The notes beneath the pieces were generated by a model. It was given only the letters and a program-made list of their open reading frames with translations. It had not been told where the DNA came from and made no database searches. A program made the translations under genes and the position numbers. From contig JAITNT010000240.1 of NCBI GenBank assembly GCA_031290295.1, forward strand, positions 1 through 10,820: a stretch of DNA of 10,820 nt, read 5' to 3'. Position 1 is the stretch's first letter. Each line of letters starts with the position of its first letter. Shown here in pieces: positions 2,986 through 9,745 of this stretch. The stretch comes from Clostridiales bacterium (GTDB lineage Bacteria; Bacillota; Clostridia; Christensenellales; DUVY01).

Positions 2986-3075
2986 GTGCTGAGACCGCAA
3001 ATGCCAACGAGGGCGAGGAGGAGAATAGGCGAGGGGGGCGGGGGATACAATAGGGCTAAGAGAATGATTGGTAGG

Positions 3076-3110
3076 CGGCGAAGAGATGTTTCGACTGCGC
3101 TCAACATGAC
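3076..3110. repeat. REP-like repeat, type 2 (ATGTT...AACAT palindrome)
   Basis: A CGGCGAAGAG lead-in (3076-3085) is followed by GATGTT, a 12-base middle and AACATGAC, so ATGTT (3086-3090) pairs with AACAT (3103-3107). Elements of this form recur between genes in many gut Firmicutes and produce spurious HVERSRNIS-like translations. It precedes a type 1 element in the same cluster. A truncated copy lies at 3387-3406. Confidence 0.65.
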
Positions 3111-3130
3111 AGAGAGGGTTGGTTAGAACT

Positions 3131-3167
3131 GGATTGCCACGTCGCTGGCGCTCCTCGCAATGACGGA
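3131..3167. repeat. REP-like repeat, type 1, copy A
   Basis: This 37-base element starts GGATTGCCACGTCGC and ends GCTCCTCGCAATGACGGA, an imperfect palindrome with ATTGC and GCAAT ends. It differs at one base (GGC for GAC in the middle) from the copies at 7108-7144 and 7193-7229. It lies in a non-coding stretch; apparent ORFs across it, such as HCEERQRRGNPV, are translations of the repeat. Confidence 0.8.
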
Positions 3168-3306
3168 TAGGGTTTTGATTGTATAGTGTACGGAAGAACA
3201 AGGGGAATCCGTACCGCAGCGAGCGCCCTGCGAAGCGCGCGAGCGGAATGACCACGCGCAGTAATGAATACGCTGTACACACCCGGATAGACTAAACCTC
3301 TTTAAG

Positions 3307-3382: not shown

Positions 3383-3386
3383 TTAG

Positions 3387-3406
3387 CGGCGAAGAGATGT
3401 TTCGAC
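3387..3406. repeat. Truncated REP-like type 2 repeat
   Basis: CGGCGAAGAGATGTTTCGAC repeats the first 20 bases of the element that begins at 3076. The match then breaks off at GCACC, so the second arm is missing. It directly follows the nested stem and may mark a breakpoint where accessory DNA entered. Confidence 0.6.
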
Positions 3407-3803: not shown

Positions 3804-4124
3804 ATGGAAAACATCGAAACAATTTTATCATTGGCGGGGACGGCGATCGGCTTGACGGTTACGGCGGTAACCTTTATCGCTAAATTTCTGAAAGCCGCAA
3901 ATGCAAAGAAAACGGCGGACGGCCTGATAGCGATCGGAAACGCGATAATCCCTTACATAGAGCAAGCCGAAAAATTCGCCGGTTATACGGGCGCGGAGAA
4001 AAAGCTGTACGTACTGACCAAGCTGCGGGAATTTGCCGGGCAAAAAGGAATAGCCTTCGACGAGCCGCAGATAAGTCAAAGGCTCGAGGAGCTTATCGGG
4101 CTGACTAAGGAGGTCAACGCGTGA
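3804..4124 (+). CDS. LL-H-holin-like small membrane protein
   Basis: The 106-residue product starts with one hydrophobic helix (about residues 6-28, LAGTAIGLTVTAVTFIAKFL). A soluble helical part follows, with AEKFAGYTGAEKKLYVLTKL, then FAGQKGIAFDEPQISQRLEE and an end in TKEVNA. This layout (helix, GxEKKxxVL, Gx-F-D-E-x-x-I, LEExI) resembles phage holins of the LL-H type, which permit release of lysins across the membrane. That assignment is by pattern memory only. The start at 3804 is fixed by AAAAGGAGG 4 bases upstream; longer in-frame starts from 3633 encode an unlikely Arg-rich leader with no ribosome site. It lies downstream of the LexA-box promoter and upstream of the recombinase, as expected for a prophage remnant. 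A membrane toxin or a non-lytic membrane protein is possible. Confidence 0.6.
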   Translation: MENIETILSLAGTAIGLTVTAVTFIAKFLKAANAKKTADGLIAIGNAIIPYIEQAEKFAGYTGAEKKLYVLTKLREFAGQKGIAFDEPQISQRLEELIGLTKEVNA

Positions 4125-4342: not shown

Positions 4343-5308
4343 ATGAACGGACAAACAACGGTGAGGGAGCTTCTCGAATACTGGCTGGAGATAGTCATGA
4401 GGGACGAATTGCGCAAGACCTCGTATGCGGCTTATCGCGGGTATGTGCGCAATCACATAGTGCCTGATGTCGGAGAATATCGGCTCACGGAGATCATGCC
4501 GGAGACGGTGCAGACGCTAACAAAAACACTCAAAGCCAAGAGCCTTGCAAGCAAGACGGTGCGCTCAATTATGGTGGTGTTGCGCAGCGCACTCGACGTT
4601 GCGGCGGACTACGGATATATCCAAAGCAACCCTTGCCGCAAGGTTAAGCTGCCGAAGATAGTGGGCGTGGAAGTCAAAACCTTTGGACTAGACGAGCAAC
4701 GGCGTATCGAACGGGTTGCTTTGGAGAGTGACGATAACCGCTGCATAGGCGTGCTGATAGGGTTTTATGCGGGTCTGCGGATAGGCGAAATCTGCGCCTT
4801 GCGGTTCTCGGATATAGATTTTGAAAACAGCAGGTTGACGGTCGGTAAATCCATGAAACGGGTTCTCAATTACGCAGACGGAGAGATGAAAACCTCCGTT
4901 GTGGAGGAAGAGCCTAAAACGGCAAAATCAAAGCGGACGATACCTATACCGAAACGGCTGTGCGCCTTAATACAAAAACGCCTCGCCGAAAGCAACGGCG
5001 AGTACGTCATATCGATGCGGAGCGGAAAGCGCGTTGAACCGCGAACCTTTCAATTCGTCTACGAAAGATTACTGAAAGCGGCAAGCGTCCCGTACTGCAA
5101 GTTTCACACCTGCCGGCATCAATTCGTGAGCAACGCAATCGCCCTCGGCGGCGACATAAAGTCTATTTCGGAGATGTGCGGTCACAGCGGGATAGGCATA
5201 ACCCTTTCGGTCTATGCGCACTCGATGCCGGGGCAGAAAGAGAAGCTGATGGAAAAAATGAACGAGATGTTTTTAGAAACCGCCGCAAGCGCGACTGTCT
5301 TTTCTTAA
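4343..5308 (+). CDS. Tyrosine recombinase (integrase/invertase family)
   Basis: The 321-residue protein has the full catalytic set of tyrosine site-specific recombinases: Arg146 (GLRIGE), Lys192 in the beta-hairpin (PKTAKSKRT), His255 and Arg258 (FHTCRHQF), His281 (CGHSGI) and the nucleophile Tyr291 (SVYAH). Residues 5-105 are a SAM-like core-binding domain. No separate N-terminal arm-binding domain precedes it, which fits an enzyme working on short simple sites. The start at 4343 has AAGGAG 7 bases upstream; the longer frame back to 4229 has no ribosome site. The stop is 7 bases before one of two inverted loxP-like sites (5315-5565), so I infer that its natural substrate is that segment and that it acts as an inverting switch. 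It could equally be the integrase of a decayed prophage. Confidence 0.93.
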   Translation: MNGQTTVRELLEYWLEIVMRDELRKTSYAAYRGYVRNHIVPDVGEYRLTEIMPETVQTLTKTLKAKSLASKTVRSIMVVLRSALDVAADYGYIQSNPCRKVKLPKIVGVEVKTFGLDEQRRIERVALESDDNRCIGVLIGFYAGLRIGEICALRFSDIDFENSRLTVGKSMKRVLNYADGEMKTSVVEEEPKTAKSKRTIPIPKRLCALIQKRLAESNGEYVISMRSGKRVEPRTFQFVYERLLKAASVPYCKFHTCRHQFVSNAIALGGDIKSISEMCGHSGIGITLSVYAHSMPGQKEKLMEKMNEMFLETAASATVFS

Positions 5309-5314
5309 GGCAGG

Positions 5315-5335
5315 TTTTTCATAGAGCATACTGCT
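5315..5335. repeat. Left inverted repeat / recombination site L
   Basis: These 21 bases are the exact reverse complement of 5545-5565. Within a longer quasi-palindrome (5316-5344), the arms TTTTCATAGAGCA and the complement of TGCTCCACGAAAA agree at 11 of 13 positions around an asymmetric TAC centre (5329-5331). The two-arm layout with a polar centre is that of a tyrosine-recombinase core site. Confidence 0.8.
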
Positions 5336-5353
5336 CCACGAAAATTACTTATT

Positions 5354-5381
5354 ATTATACTCCAAACAAATGACTTTGCAA
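5354..5381 (-). promoter_or_regulatory. Promoter inside the invertible segment, currently pointing left
   Basis: Read on the minus strand, TTGCAA (5381-5376), 16 bases, then a perfect TATAAT (5359-5354). An inverted repeat, TTGCA...TGCAA (5376-5392), overlaps the -35, and GCCAT-AAA-ATGGC (5393-5405) lies just upstream. Both could be regulator sites. Transcription would begin near 5347 and cross site L into the 3' end of the recombinase gene in antisense. Confidence 0.6.
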
Positions 5382-5544
5382 ACAAAATGCAAGCCATAAA
5401 ATGGCAAAACTCGACATGCTGCCTGAAAAATCTACAGAGTTTTTTGTCGCAAAGCAATTTCAGCCCCCTTTGCCGGTCTAAATCGCCCGTCGGATTGCGG
5501 AAAGACCCGCCATATATCACATTTTAGCGGTCTGTTTTTCATAT

Positions 5545-5565
5545 AGCAGTATGCTCTATGAAAAA
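5545..5565. repeat. Right inverted repeat / recombination site R
   Basis: This is the exact reverse complement of 5315-5335. The extended site (5535-5565) is a near-perfect palindrome: 14-base arms agree at 13 positions around a GTA centre (5549-5551). That centre is the reverse complement of the TAC in site L, so the two sites have opposite polarity and predict inversion, not deletion. Confidence 0.8.
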
Positions 5566-5701
5566 AAGGGGGCATATATATGAACACGAAAGGTTCGATT
5601 TTGAAGAAGCCAGCATTCTGTTGCTCGTCCTAGCGGAAGCGTGGCGGCGTACAAGGCGGCAAGCGGTTGGAGCAGCTATGCAAGCCGTATATACGCAATA
5701 G
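5558..5701 (+). CDS. Possible 47-residue ORF starting inside recombination site R (doubtful)
   Basis: An ATG within the right repeat opens MKKRGHIYEHERFDFEEASI, continues through LLLVLAEAWRRTRRQ and stops with TAG at 5699-5701. It has no ribosome site. A second short frame begins at 5580 with an AGGGGG site 7 bases upstream and gives a 17-residue Cys-ending peptide (MNTKGSILKKPAFCCSS). Both would be read only if a transcript crosses site R, which the inverted promoter would provide. Either may be a leader peptide, or this may be the decayed start of an older gene. No family is recognised. Confidence 0.25.
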   Translation: MKKRGHIYEHERFDFEEASILLLVLAEAWRRTRRQAVGAAMQAVYTQ

Positions 5702-5779: not shown

Positions 5780-6412
5780 ATGAAAGAAATTATAGAATTA
5801 GCGGTCGGGTCTGCGTTTGTAACGGTTGCCTCCAAGGTTTTGGATACTGTGGTGTCCCTTGTCGGTGTAATTATTGCCGCCTTAACCTTCTTCATGGCCT
5901 TGTTCGCGCTCATAATTGCAAGAAAACAGTTGCGCGGTATGCACGACACTATGCGCGATTCCGCAACGCAGAACATAAAAGCTAACGCTTTTGACAGAGC
6001 CGGCGTCTTTATACAATTAGAAACTACAATGCGAACAAACGATAGAATTTTTGCGGCGTTGCGTTTAATAGAAGATGAAAATAGGCCCGATATAGCAGCG
6101 CACCCATGGTATGACCCCGGTAGAGAAATAGCAGACGGAAGGTTTCTGCCGCCCAATGCGCGGCAAAATGAAGAGAACATTGACGCATTATTTGGTTGTA
6201 TGTCTTGCGTGTGTTATTTGTCCGAGAACGGATTGGTAGAAGAATCGGAGCTTGGCATGTTAAAATATCGGTTAAAAAAGATAATTGCTTCAAATTGTTC
6301 AAAACAATATCTTGAACACAACAAATTCCACGCGGCGCAAAGAAGTGAAACATTCTCGTTCGAATCATTGCTCAAAGCGGTCAATAACGGACGGTTTATT
6401 ATTAACCGTTAG
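5780..6412 (+). CDS. Single-helix membrane protein with cytosolic helical domain (unrecognised)
   Basis: I do not recognise the family with certainty. The 210-residue protein has a short amphipathic start and one transmembrane helix at about residues 24-47 (SLVGVIIAALTFFMALFALI). ARKQLRGMHDTMRD follows, which should lie on the cytosolic side and may be coiled. The rest (70-185) is alpha-helical in character, with a conserved-looking region, ALFGCMSCVCYLSENGLVEE, followed by YRLKKIIASNCSKQYL. That layout resembles small membrane-anchored DUF4760-type proteins, by impression only. AAAGGA lies about 10 bases before the ATG. The gene is visibly AT-rich (19 G/C in 6241-6300 against 34 in 8761-8820 of tex), which suggests transfer. 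It is the first good gene after the invertible segment, so it is the likely target of the switch. Confidence 0.75.
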   Translation: MKEIIELAVGSAFVTVASKVLDTVVSLVGVIIAALTFFMALFALIIARKQLRGMHDTMRDSATQNIKANAFDRAGVFIQLETTMRTNDRIFAALRLIEDENRPDIAAHPWYDPGREIADGRFLPPNARQNEENIDALFGCMSCVCYLSENGLVEESELGMLKYRLKKIIASNCSKQYLEHNKFHAAQRSETFSFESLLKAVNNGRFIINR

Positions 6413-6523: not shown

Positions 6524-7054
6524 ATGAAAAAGCTTTTAGTTTTTACGGCAATCTTTATGATTTTTTTGGCGCAGGGGCTTCGCGGCGGCGATATTTATAG
6601 CGACATGCGTTTGGAATCCGGGCACGGCGTATGGTATACTGTACAGGGCGATAGGGTTTGCGATAAAGAACGGTTTTCTGCAGAATTGGAAGACAACTTT
6701 GCCGATATACCGGATATTTATATTGATAATATCGGGACAGGGGCGACATTTAGAGGGATAGGAGAGGCGTTACGCGAGAGGTTTTCTGCTATCGAGTGCG
6801 GCGCGATTGACGGACTGCTTACTTCGTACAGTAATTTTTGGCATGGGTTTAACTATACCCGCATAACAATTGCACCGACGGAGGATGACGCCGCAAGACA
6901 AGCGCTTTATGAATTTAGACATGCCGTAAGAGAAACATTGCTTAGAATTGTCGGCGAGGGGCGTTTTGAAAAGAGCGCGGAAAACATTGTCCGAACGTGC
7001 AGATATTTGCAGAACAATCCCGGAAGGACAGTGTTCACCACAATGGGGGATTAA
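6524..7054 (+). CDS. Secreted or membrane-anchored protein of unknown function
   Basis: From the ATG at 6524 the product is 176 residues and begins MKKLLVFTAIFMIFLAQG, a typical signal peptide or N-terminal anchor. There is no lipobox cysteine, and cleavage might fall after AQG. The mature part contains Cys46, Cys92 and Cys159, an acidic stretch (ELEDNFADIPDIYIDNIG) and a helical C-terminus ending TVFTTMGD. I recognise no domain. A TTG at 6485 would add 13 residues ahead of the hydrophobic segment, which is less likely for an exported protein. No clear ribosome site precedes either start, so translation may be weak. It follows the membrane-protein gene by 111 bases on the same strand, across a strong hairpin, and shares its lower G+C. 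The two may form one cargo unit. Confidence 0.65.
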   Translation: MKKLLVFTAIFMIFLAQGLRGGDIYSDMRLESGHGVWYTVQGDRVCDKERFSAELEDNFADIPDIYIDNIGTGATFRGIGEALRERFSAIECGAIDGLLTSYSNFWHGFNYTRITIAPTEDDAARQALYEFRHAVRETLLRIVGEGRFEKSAENIVRTCRYLQNNPGRTVFTTMGD

Positions 7055-7107
7055 GCGAGCGTGAAATATTTGAGCGGCGAAGAGGGGAAAACGGACAAGT
7101 TAAAACT

Positions 7108-7144
7108 GGATTGCCACGTCGCTGACGCTCCTCGCAATGACGGA
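7108..7144. repeat. REP-like repeat, type 1, copy B
   Basis: This is identical over 37 bases to copy C (7193-7229) and has one mismatch to copy A (3131-3167). It is preceded by CGGCGAAGAG at 7075-7084 and followed by the linker GGATTAGTTTTATTGTAT, which resembles the linker after copy A. Confidence 0.8.
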
Positions 7145-7192
7145 TAGGATTAGTTTTATTGTATTGGGCGGTGGAAGCGGCGAAGAGGGTCC

Positions 7193-7229
7193 GGATTGCC
7201 ACGTCGCTGACGCTCCTCGCAATGACGGA
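7193..7229. repeat. REP-like repeat, type 1, copy C
   Basis: This is the second of two tandem copies about 48 bases apart. CGGCGAAGAG precedes it at 7178-7187. Its downstream linker, GAGGGTTGGTT, matches the one after the type 2 element at 3111-3123, so the two hairpin types share flanks. The rest of the gap to the tex promoter (7230-7330) has no gene. Confidence 0.8.
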
Positions 7230-7334
7230 GAGGGTTGGTTTTAATTGCAGCGGGGGACGGAAGAACGGGCATGGATAGAGCGGAGTGCGAGGGGCGGAGC
7301 TATAGGCGTCCGGGCGGCTTAGCGTTGCAGACGG

Positions 7335-7372
7335 TGGACTTTTTGGGCGCGGTAGTGTAAAATACTCTTACA
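7335..7372 (+). promoter_or_regulatory. Promoter of tex with overlapping inverted repeat
   Basis: TGGACT (7335-7340), 17 bases, then TAAAAT (7358-7363). The -35 is weak and the -10 good. TGTAA (7356-7360) and TTACA (7368-7372) form an inverted repeat across the -10 and start region, a possible operator. Transcription would begin near 7370, leaving a leader of about 24 bases. Confidence 0.5.
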
Positions 7373-7393
7373 TTAACTTTTTAGGAGATATTG

Positions 7394-9745
7394 ATGGATT
7401 ACAGTTCTAAGCTTAGCAAGGAGTTTAAGCTCCGGCAGGAGGATGCGCGTAATATTATTAACCTTATCGACGAAGGAAATACCATTCCTTTTATCGCGCG
7501 GTACCGCAAGGAGCTTACGGGTTCTTGCGACGACCAGGTTTTGAGAGAGTTTGCGGACAGATTGGAATACATTAAGAAATTAGACGAGCGCAAGGAGGCG
7601 GTTATCGCTTCTATTACCGAGCAAGGCGTGATGACCGACGCGCTGGCCGTTTCGATAGCCTGCGCGGAAACGCTCACCGAGGCCGAGGATATTTACCGCC
7701 CTTATAAGCCTAAGCGCAAGACGCGCGCTACCGTCGCCGTCGCAAAGGGACTGGAGCCGCTTGCCGAGCTTATACTTGCCCAGCGCGAGGATACGAAGGA
7801 TATTATCGGAATCGCCGCCGAGTATGTAAGCGAGGAAAAGGGCGTGGCGACGCCCGAGGAAGCGATTGCCGGCGCGCAGGACATTATCGCCGAGCGGATT
7901 TCGGACGACGCAGGTATAAGAAAGCGTTTGAGAGAGCAGCTTTATGAGGAAGCGCAGGTCGTCACCGAGCTTGCTAAGGCTACCGACAAGAACAGGGATA
8001 AGCTCGCGACCTTCGATATGTATAAGGAATTTACCGAGCCGGTAAGAAAAATTGCGCCGCACCGCGTGCTTGCCGTCAACCGCGGCGAAAAGGAGGACTG
8101 TCTGAAGGTCGAGCTAGAAATAGACAGGGAGCTTCCTCTGGCGGTTATTTCGGGCGCGTACGTAAAGAACGCGCCCACGAGTCCTCTCGTTCTCGCCGCC
8201 GGAGAGGACGCCTACAAGCGGCTCATAAAGCCGTCGGTGGAAAGCGAGGTGCGCGGCGAGCTGTTTGAAAAAGCGAGCGAGCAGGCCATTAAGATGTTCG
8301 AGGTTAACCTAAGACCGTTGCTTCTGCAGCCGCCGATCAAAAATAAGGTGACGTTAGGGCTTGACCCCGCCTACCGTACGGGCTGTAAAATCGCCGTAGT
8401 CGACGGCACGGGTAATTGCCTTGACCGTACCGTAGTCCATTTCACGCCGCCGCAAAACAAGGTTGAGGAAAGCAAGCTCGTTTTGAAAGGGCTTATCAAA
8501 AAGCACGGCGTAGAGATTATTTCTATCGGGAACGGCACCGCCTCCAAGGAATCGGAAATCTTCGTCGCCGAGCTTTTGAAGGAAATAGGCGACCCTAAGC
8601 TTGCCTACATGGTAGTTAACGAAGCGGGGGCTTCCGTGTATTCCGCTTCTAAGCTTGCCGCGGAGGAGTTCCCGGATTACGACGTGGCGCACCGCAGCGC
8701 GATCAGTATCGCGCGGCGCTTGCAGGATCCGCTCGCCGAGCTTATAAAGATAGACCCTAAGTCGATAGGCGTAGGTCAATATCAGCACGACATGCCGCAA
8801 AACCGCCTGAGCACCGTGCTTAACGGCGTAGTGGAGGACTGCGTTAACAGCGTGGGCGTCGACCTCAACAGCGCAAGCTACAGCCTGCTCGCCTACGTTG
8901 CGGGGCTTAATCTCGCTATCGCCAAAAACATCGTCAGGTTCCGCGCCGAGAACGGCGGCTTCCGCACCCGGGAACAGCTGTTGAAGGTAGCAAAGCTGGG
9001 TCCCAAAGCGTATGAGCAATGCGCGGGATTCCTGCGTATTGCGGGCAGTGAAAACATACTCGACAACACCGCCGTGCACCCCGAATCATACGCCGCCGCG
9101 ACTAAATTGTTGCAGCTGTTTAAGCTTGGTTACGACTCCGTTCGGGAAGGCAAGCTGTCCGATATCGAGGGGCTTATCCGCGCTTACGGCGAGGAAAAAG
9201 CCGCCGCCGAATGCGGCGTAGGGCTTCCTACGCTCAAGGATATAGCGGGCGAGCTGAAGAAGCCCGGGCGCGATATCCGCGACGCGCTCCCGCTGCCGAT
9301 GCTGCGCTGCGACATTATGGACATGGGCGACCTCAAGGAGGGCATGGAGCTTACGGGCACGGTGAGAAACGTAATCGATTTCGGCGTGTTCGTGGATATA
9401 GGCGTACATCAGGACGGGCTTGTCCACATCAGCCAGATAGCGGATGCGTACATTAAGCATCCGTCCGACGTGCTCTCCGTAGGCGATATCGTCAAGGTGA
9501 GGGTGCTCGGCGTGGAAAAATCTAAGAACCGTATCAGCCTCACTATGAAGGGCTTCGATTCCTCCGCCTCCGCCCGCGCCAGGGAGTTGAACGCGCAAAA
9601 CCGTACGGCGCGTCCCGCTCCGTCAAATAACCGCGCCGCGTCCGACGGCAGAGCCGCGCCGCGACCGCAACAGAAAGAGACGGGCGAGCTGTCCCTGGAG
9701 GACGCGCTTAAAGCGTTGACGAACAAATTCAACCGGAACAGATAA
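7394..9745 (+). CDS. tex: Tex family transcription accessory protein
   Basis: The 783-residue protein is full length for Tex (the Spt6-related RNA-binding factor of bacteria, linked to transcription and stress tolerance). In order: an N-terminal helical Tex-N region (about 1-200, with FIARYRKELTGSCDDQVLREF and DIYRPYKPKRKTRA); a YqgF/RNase H-like domain from about 320 (LGLDPAYRTGCKIAVVDGTG); helix-hairpin-helix units around 490-560 (NIVRFRAENGGFRTREQLL); and an S1 RNA-binding domain at about 650-718 (GTVRNVIDFGVFVDIGVHQD). A basic, Ala/Arg/Pro-rich tail of about 65 residues follows. The start at 7394 has AGGAG six bases upstream; a TTG immediately before it is less likely. The next gene follows after 20 bases, so the two probably share a transcript. 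Confidence 0.97.
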   Translation: MDYSSKLSKEFKLRQEDARNIINLIDEGNTIPFIARYRKELTGSCDDQVLREFADRLEYIKKLDERKEAVIASITEQGVMTDALAVSIACAETLTEAEDIYRPYKPKRKTRATVAVAKGLEPLAELILAQREDTKDIIGIAAEYVSEEKGVATPEEAIAGAQDIIAERISDDAGIRKRLREQLYEEAQVVTELAKATDKNRDKLATFDMYKEFTEPVRKIAPHRVLAVNRGEKEDCLKVELEIDRELPLAVISGAYVKNAPTSPLVLAAGEDAYKRLIKPSVESEVRGELFEKASEQAIKMFEVNLRPLLLQPPIKNKVTLGLDPAYRTGCKIAVVDGTGNCLDRTVVHFTPPQNKVEESKLVLKGLIKKHGVEIISIGNGTASKESEIFVAELLKEIGDPKLAYMVVNEAGASVYSASKLAAEEFPDYDVAHRSAISIARRLQDPLAELIKIDPKSIGVGQYQHDMPQNRLSTVLNGVVEDCVNSVGVDLNSASYSLLAYVAGLNLAIAKNIVRFRAENGGFRTREQLLKVAKLGPKAYEQCAGFLRIAGSENILDNTAVHPESYAAATKLLQLFKLGYDSVREGKLSDIEGLIRAYGEEKAAAECGVGLPTLKDIAGELKKPGRDIRDALPLPMLRCDIMDMGDLKEGMELTGTVRNVIDFGVFVDIGVHQDGLVHISQIADAYIKHPSDVLSVGDIVKVRVLGVEKSKNRISLTMKGFDSSASARARELNAQNRTARPAPSNNRAASDGRAAPRPQQKETGELSLEDALKALTNKFNRNR

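Follow-up and report, generated by a model that had tools for sequence, protein, structure and literature searches.

The window analysed here, a stretch of 10,820 nucleotides, is contig C141 of MAG G000, which is 62% complete and comprises 1.77 Mb on 306 contigs. The locus under study lies between housekeeping genes, with serS and an isochorismatase gene on one side and tex and a HAD gene on the other. Between these lie, in order, a holin-like gene, a tyrosine recombinase gene, a pair of inverted repeats and two open reading frames (5780–6412 and 6524–7054). The small holin-like protein (3804–4124, plus strand; PF09682 above the cut-off) is encoded upstream of the recombinase. Because only one weak match to it was found among the fetched loci (L096, E = 0.003), whose upstream DNA varies in length, it is probably not a part of the switch described below. 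A dispersed repeat with the core GGATTGCCACGTCGC..CTCCTCGCAATGAC occurs on both sides of the locus (3122–3174, 7099–7151 and 7184–7236). These direct repeats had suggested a mobile element, an idea that was rejected since the core is present in 53 copies in the MAG. In addition, an exact 21-bp direct repeat, GCGGCGAAGAGATGTTTCGAC, is found in intergenic DNA before the holin-like gene (3075–3095 and 3386–3406).

The recombinase (4343–5308, plus strand), a protein of 321 aa and the presumed invertase, contains PF00589 (E = 1.9e-22) and PF14659 (E = 1.3e-10) domains. Six residues, R146, K192, H255, R258, H281 and Y291, are invariant in recombinase alignments of 15 and 17 rows. We take these to be the expected catalytic residues, in agreement with the initial annotation, which had called the enzyme catalytically complete. 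Scores fell far below the cut-offs of the NCBIfam models for tyrosine-type DNA invertases of the FimB/FimE type (26.2 and 20.5 bits, against 221 and 222) and for XerC/XerD (63.3 and 52 bits, against 335.15 and 329.6). The best match among solved structures was the XerC-like 4a8e (E = 3.1e-12), and 6emy, listed as 'Int protein' and presumably Tn1549 Int, also matched (E = 1.7e-8); both belong to the same superfamily as the window recombinase, with weak and partial similarity (72–166 and 136–301). The best PHROG was the integrase family phrog_1. Single-protein scans of genome and viral contigs with the recombinase returned no relatives, but an alignment query did find them.

Six bases separate the recombinase stop codon (5306–5308), at which a terminator-like hairpin is found on the plus strand only (5295–5313), from an exact inverted repeat. 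The 21-bp arms (5315–5335 and 5545–5565, 21/21) enclose 209 bp, just as first reported. The longest exact inverted repeat in 60 simulated Markov-1 windows of the same composition (loop ≤500 bp) measured 10–14 bp, which bears out the earlier judgement that chance is a very unlikely source of a 21-bp repeat. The full arms (5315–5344 and 5536–5565) are complementary at 27 of 30 positions and also match each other as direct repeats (81%). Each arm is itself an imperfect dyad, composed of inverted half-sites with a short centre between them, which the initial annotation had overlooked. The left site consists of an outer half-site (5315–5326), the 7-bp centre CATACTG (5327–5333) and an inner half-site (5334–5344), and the right site of an inner half-site (5536–5546), a centre (5547–5553) and an outer half-site (5554–5565); 5345–5535 forms the interior of the proposed invertible segment. 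Outer half-sites and centres are identical between the two arms, and the 11-nt inner half-sites have three mismatches. Inverted half-sites flanking a short centre are the layout of a tyrosine-recombinase core site. In their dyads, identical centres and exact 21-bp match the repeats resemble recombination sites, and each arm is a complete core site of this type, not a plain repeat.

The TATAAT promoter noted earlier inside the repeats, for which no direction had been given, is present on the minus strand. The promoter-like sequence TTTGCA-17-TATAAT (5354–5382; TATAAT at 5354–5359, TTTGCA at 5377–5382; 10/12 matches) sits 18 bp from the left 21-bp arm and is directed toward the recombinase. The other end of the segment has no match of such strength, and the internal promoter leaves through one end only. 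Because this strong promoter points back at the recombinase, the assembled orientation is predicted to be OFF for the downstream genes. After inversion (x to 5880 − x, by arithmetic) the promoter would lie at 5498–5526 on the plus strand. A weaker rightward promoter-like match (9/12, 5375–5402) is found in the assembled segment, and the OFF state may therefore be leaky.

The relatives recovered by the alignment-based search of genome and viral contigs (best 80 loci of each) were examined for similar repeats. The 98 fetched cellular loci and the window included 89 with at least 250 bp of downstream DNA, which made them testable, and a repeat was called at a score of at least 15 with a loop of 80–500 bp. 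Downstream inverted repeats were detected in 36 of the 89 testable cellular loci or, among the matches listed, in 34 of 86 distinct loci once the duplicates L053, L054 (= L038) and L124 were dropped. The controls gave 3/93 for upstream DNA, 1/445 for Markov sequences and 1/48 for viral integrases. The remaining 52 of the 86 distinct loci show no repeat at this threshold and the label is scattered in the wider family, which confines the link to a repeat to some of its branches. Testable loci at least 40% identical to the window, the window included, carry the repeat in 11 of 12 cases; the exception, L055, retains a right site and, by eye, a decayed left one. L036 is truncated by its own contig end. 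Arm sequences differ between loci while their placement is conserved. In a quick tree of 126 rows, which omits proteins of fewer than 230 residues and viral loci after L165, the window clade has an SH-aLRT of 100 and contains 11 rows, namely ten with repeats and L055. The initial annotation had named repeats not conserved next to the recombinase, together with a lack of inverted junctions and of opposite orientations, as what would refute a switch; the repeats are conserved in part of the 86 loci and in 11 of the 12 closest testable ones. The result is a well-supported clade of recombinases with a switch that is recognisable in an assembly without further data.

In the repeat, terminator and promoter tallies, the near relatives L099, L100, L102 and L106 are counted separately. 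A promoter with at least 10/12 matches, no more than 40 bp from one end and pointing outward, was found in 23 of the 34 segments (control 1.65% per end). It is directed toward the recombinase in 21 of these and toward the cargo in two, with none at both ends; the other 11 segments fall below the threshold. A looser promoter score labels some loci ON (e.g. L057) that the stricter score leaves open. One outward promoter per segment is a requirement of an on/off switch, and the OFF bias in assemblies may reflect a majority of cells in the OFF state. Terminator-like hairpins are found in the gap that separates the recombinase from the left arm, on the minus strand in 16 of 34 loci (control 3.1%) and on the plus strand in 3 of 34 (control 2.2%). 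Inside the segments such hairpins are present in 8 of 34 loci on the plus strand and 5 of 34 on the minus strand (controls 2.6% and 1.9%). Minus-strand terminators in this position would halt OFF-state transcripts before antisense entry into the recombinase gene. The window is among the loci without the minus-strand hairpin and has a plus-strand one only.

Among 43 segments, eight homologous pairs were identified, none of which includes the window. Two pairs are in opposite orientations and six in matching ones; the near relatives L099, L100, L102 and L106 account for four of the six. The first opposite pair is found in G002, a genome of the same family with two paralogous loci, C10 and C77. 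The recombinases of these loci align +/+ at 81% and the segments align +/− at 91% (189 bp) and 88% (72 bp), or 94% and 86% when trimmed; the alignment ends at one arm and about eight bases past the other. The second pair, on contigs C238 and C300, belongs to the window's own MAG. There, the right arm and 36 bp of flank align +/+ (89% over 66 bp) and the segments align +/− (88% over 142 bp and 91% over 127 bp), with ends no more than three bases from the arms. The initial annotation had proposed to look for both orientations in related genomes; opposite orientations of related segments are seen in two pairs of eight, each within one genome. The C300 segment is interrupted by a transposase-like gene with an HTH_38 domain (7017–8285, minus strand), presumably of IS30 type. 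This gene enlarges the invertible segment (L223, 6645–8553) to about 1.9 kb; the segment is in the ON orientation before InlB/LRR lipoprotein genes.

The repeats of the clade, the single outward promoter per segment and the two opposite pairs strongly support the earlier claim of an invertible promoter beside a tyrosine recombinase, the inversion of this particular segment remaining a prediction. We hold with considerable confidence that 5315–5565 is an inverton that would be driven by the adjacent recombinase and would control the cargo. The recombinase would bind the dyad sites at both ends, each composed of half-sites of the TTTTCATAGAG type and a 7-bp centre, and strand exchange between the identical centres would invert the segment. 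In the assembled orientation the strong promoter would drive transcription leftward, in the direction of the recombinase gene's 3' end, leaving the cargo OFF. In the inverted state, transcription from it would instead run rightward through the right site and reach 5580, 5780 and 6524.

The half-site is shared by other loci in the MAG. The pattern TCATAGAG-N7-CTCTATGA, with up to two mismatches, matches eight sites in G000, which form four inverted pairs (C3, C141, C238 and C300), and a control pattern has no match. A looser pattern adds two single two-mismatch matches, on C28 and C252, against three for the control. One pair of this site pattern was found in G004, and eight other genomes have single two-mismatch or unpaired sites, as common as control matches. 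The centres are CATACTG in the window, TAGGTTA on C3, TAATGTA on C238 and TAGTGTA on C300, each the same in both arms of its pair. Despite about 90% identity between the segments of C238 and C300, their centres differ, and do so alike in both arms. Similarly, the G002 pairs have the centres TTAGTAT and TTACTAT, each the same in its own two arms. A centre change matched in both arms is expected if the arms recombine. The centre is identical within the pair in 33 of 34 segments (L040 differs at one base), a figure to which the selection of pairs on arm identity itself contributes. The C177 recombinase of the same MAG has a fifth, unrelated pair (30/30). Half-sites shared between pairs whose centres differ, together with terminators that would shield many recombinases, were the less expected features.

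These sites bear on which enzyme acts at the window. A recombinase adjoins the C3 and C141 pairs, and none was found on contigs C238 (4.0 kb upstream and 1.2 kb downstream) and C300 (6.6 and 2.5 kb). The two further pairs of the same half-site without a recombinase on their contigs suggest that the word 'self-contained', used in the initial annotation, may be too strong. Because half-sites are shared, the segment might flip mainly through another recombinase acting in trans, for example the C3 paralogue, which is 49% identical to the window recombinase and has the same half-site. This possibility, which is compatible with the inverton reading, is the less probable one, given that 11 of the 12 close testable loci have the repeat immediately after the recombinase gene, as they would with a dedicated enzyme. 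A broader and equally tentative proposal is an addressing system, in which the half-site TTTTCATAGAG would serve at least four switches and the 7-bp centre would act as the private address of each, restricting recombination to the two arms of one pair. One enzyme could then flip several surface-lipoprotein promoters independently, two of them without a recombinase of their own. In loci that lack the terminator, the window among them, flipping in the OFF state could be damped by antisense RNA.

Switches of this kind are known from other bacteria. The fim switch (FimB/FimE) combines an invertible promoter with an adjacent tyrosine recombinase, as is proposed for the window, although the window recombinase scores far below the NCBIfam invertase cut-offs. 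The Mpi/Tsr systems of Bacteroides comprise invertible promoters, with several invertons of one site type per genome as in the window's MAG; unlike the window recombinase, the Mpi enzyme belongs to the serine recombinases. Among published invertons, group 139 has 33 members, 32 of them from Clostridia and nearly all near a gene of tyrosine-type recombinase group 35 (PMC11892184). Shifts of orientation in reads were described for this group, one example being Clostridium sp. D5, where 26-bp arms enclose 205 bp, and several invertons of one group with related repeats can share one genome (PMC11892184). The window resembles group 139, as described, in having a tyrosine recombinase near a short candidate inverton, and in the part of that account consulted the half-site is not separated from the centre as it is here (PMC11892184). 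In Clostridioides difficile, the tyrosine recombinase RecV inverts short segments beside surface and signalling genes and is required at several sites (PMC5903667). Cdi2 and Cdi5 have repeats in common, and Cdi7 is RecV-independent and, like the window, has an adjacent recombinase but, unlike the window, spans a small ORF (PMC5903667). With recombinase-linked clostridial invertons already in print (PMC11892184; PMC5903667), this kind of switch is known, and the suggestion in the initial annotation that the system as a whole may be undescribed now holds for its cargo, which has no relative found. This member, its orphan cargo and the half-site and centre pattern were not encountered in the portions of the literature searched. 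Judged from its sequence and from related loci, the locus is very probably a working invertible-promoter switch of the described kind.

Immediately beyond the right site, a 17-codon ORF (5580–5633, plus strand), identified by eye with low confidence, is preceded by a GGGGG motif. A frame that overlaps it looks, again by eye, like a broken lipoprotein signal peptide, and the region is possibly the remnant of an earlier cargo gene. The first predicted cargo gene (5780–6412, plus strand) encodes 210 aa with one long, well-predicted N-terminal helix and no confident structure in the remainder, and the second (6524–7054, plus strand) encodes 176 aa from its ATG with, by eye, a hydrophobic N-terminus. 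A search of 5.8 billion sequences, which needs common short exact words and a length of 0.55–1.75 times the query, returned only self matches for both proteins, and family scans gave only sub-threshold matches, which were rejected. The earlier statement that they belong to no known family has therefore held up. Their predicted folds are poor (mean pLDDT 54.2 for 5780 and 38.6 for 6524). Cargo GC is 43–46%, against 56–58% in serS and tex, and this AT-richness suggests that the genes were probably acquired late. Genes under such switches often act at the surface or in defence, which marks these two orphans for a test of function.

The same features could belong to a once-active switch that is now locked, its original lipoprotein cargo decayed and AT-rich orphan genes inserted behind it. 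The broken signal-peptide-like frame, the low GC of the cargo and the three mismatches between inner half-sites fit such a history, but the recombinase ORF, the outer half-sites and the 7-bp centres are all intact, half-sites and centres being identical between the arms, and a good promoter has been kept. Moreover, changed cargo does not stop flipping, and we consider a locked switch improbable. A phage-type integrase, with the dyads as att sites bearing arm-binding repeats for integration and excision, is far less probable still. It would agree with the match to phrog_1 and the holin-like gene upstream, but the sites are in inverted orientation with 209 bp between them, both lie on a single side, and the far end of the locus has no direct copy. 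Direct att repeats flanking phage or transfer genes were not found; the site type in G000 forms four inverted pairs, and the longest direct repeats around the locus contain the 53-copy dispersed repeat. The outer neighbours are housekeeping genes, and related viral integrases have such a repeat in only 1 of 48 cases. A chance or plain hairpin pair can be practically dismissed, for although the dyads fold as hairpins, the 21-bp exact match exceeds anything in the 60 simulations and the placement is conserved while the sequence changes.

The cargo of the related loci is diverse. First ORFs of at least 80 codons and no more than 700 bp from the right arm were scanned in 30 of the 32 loci having one (L099 and L102 were omitted). 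At L034, L039, L045, L071, L126 and L128 the match above the cut-off was to a surface or secreted protein, with repeats of the InlB, Glug, BspA-LRR or SLH type. Other assignments above the cut-off were a prepilin-like protein (L107), a TIR protein (L047), a dynamin-like GTPase (L066), a LytTR protein (L072), DNA methylases (L043, L051 and L103), a restriction-type helicase (L121), NusG-like proteins (L041 and L052) and an rRNA adenine dimethylase (L057); a methyltransferase was at the cut-off (L056), and the other first ORFs scanned were weak or without a family. Phase-variable methylation or defence is probable at L043, L051, L103 and L121. The NusG-like first genes recall, we assume, Bacteroides capsule loci. 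From surface proteins, DNA methylases and a restriction-type helicase to TIR, NusG-like and rRNA methylase genes, the 34 loci offer material for asking what kinds of function are placed under random control in bacteria. Lipoprotein-like genes follow all three further switches that have this half-site in the window's MAG, with InlB/Glug on C3, the thiol-activated-cytolysin family on C238 and InlB and LRR on C300. The C238 gene (L222, 4301–5503; PF01289, E = 1.1e-26) encodes a lipoprotein of this cytolysin family, is cut by the contig end and lies behind a recombinase-less inverton in the OFF orientation. At L057, on plasmid contig p191B of Paenalcaligenes suwonensis (377–2241), the gene of the rRNA adenine dimethylase family follows a recombinase whose DNA matches that of G004 (L040) at 80% identity across 569 bp and whose half-site is the same, which points to either a cross-phylum transfer or a contaminant contig.
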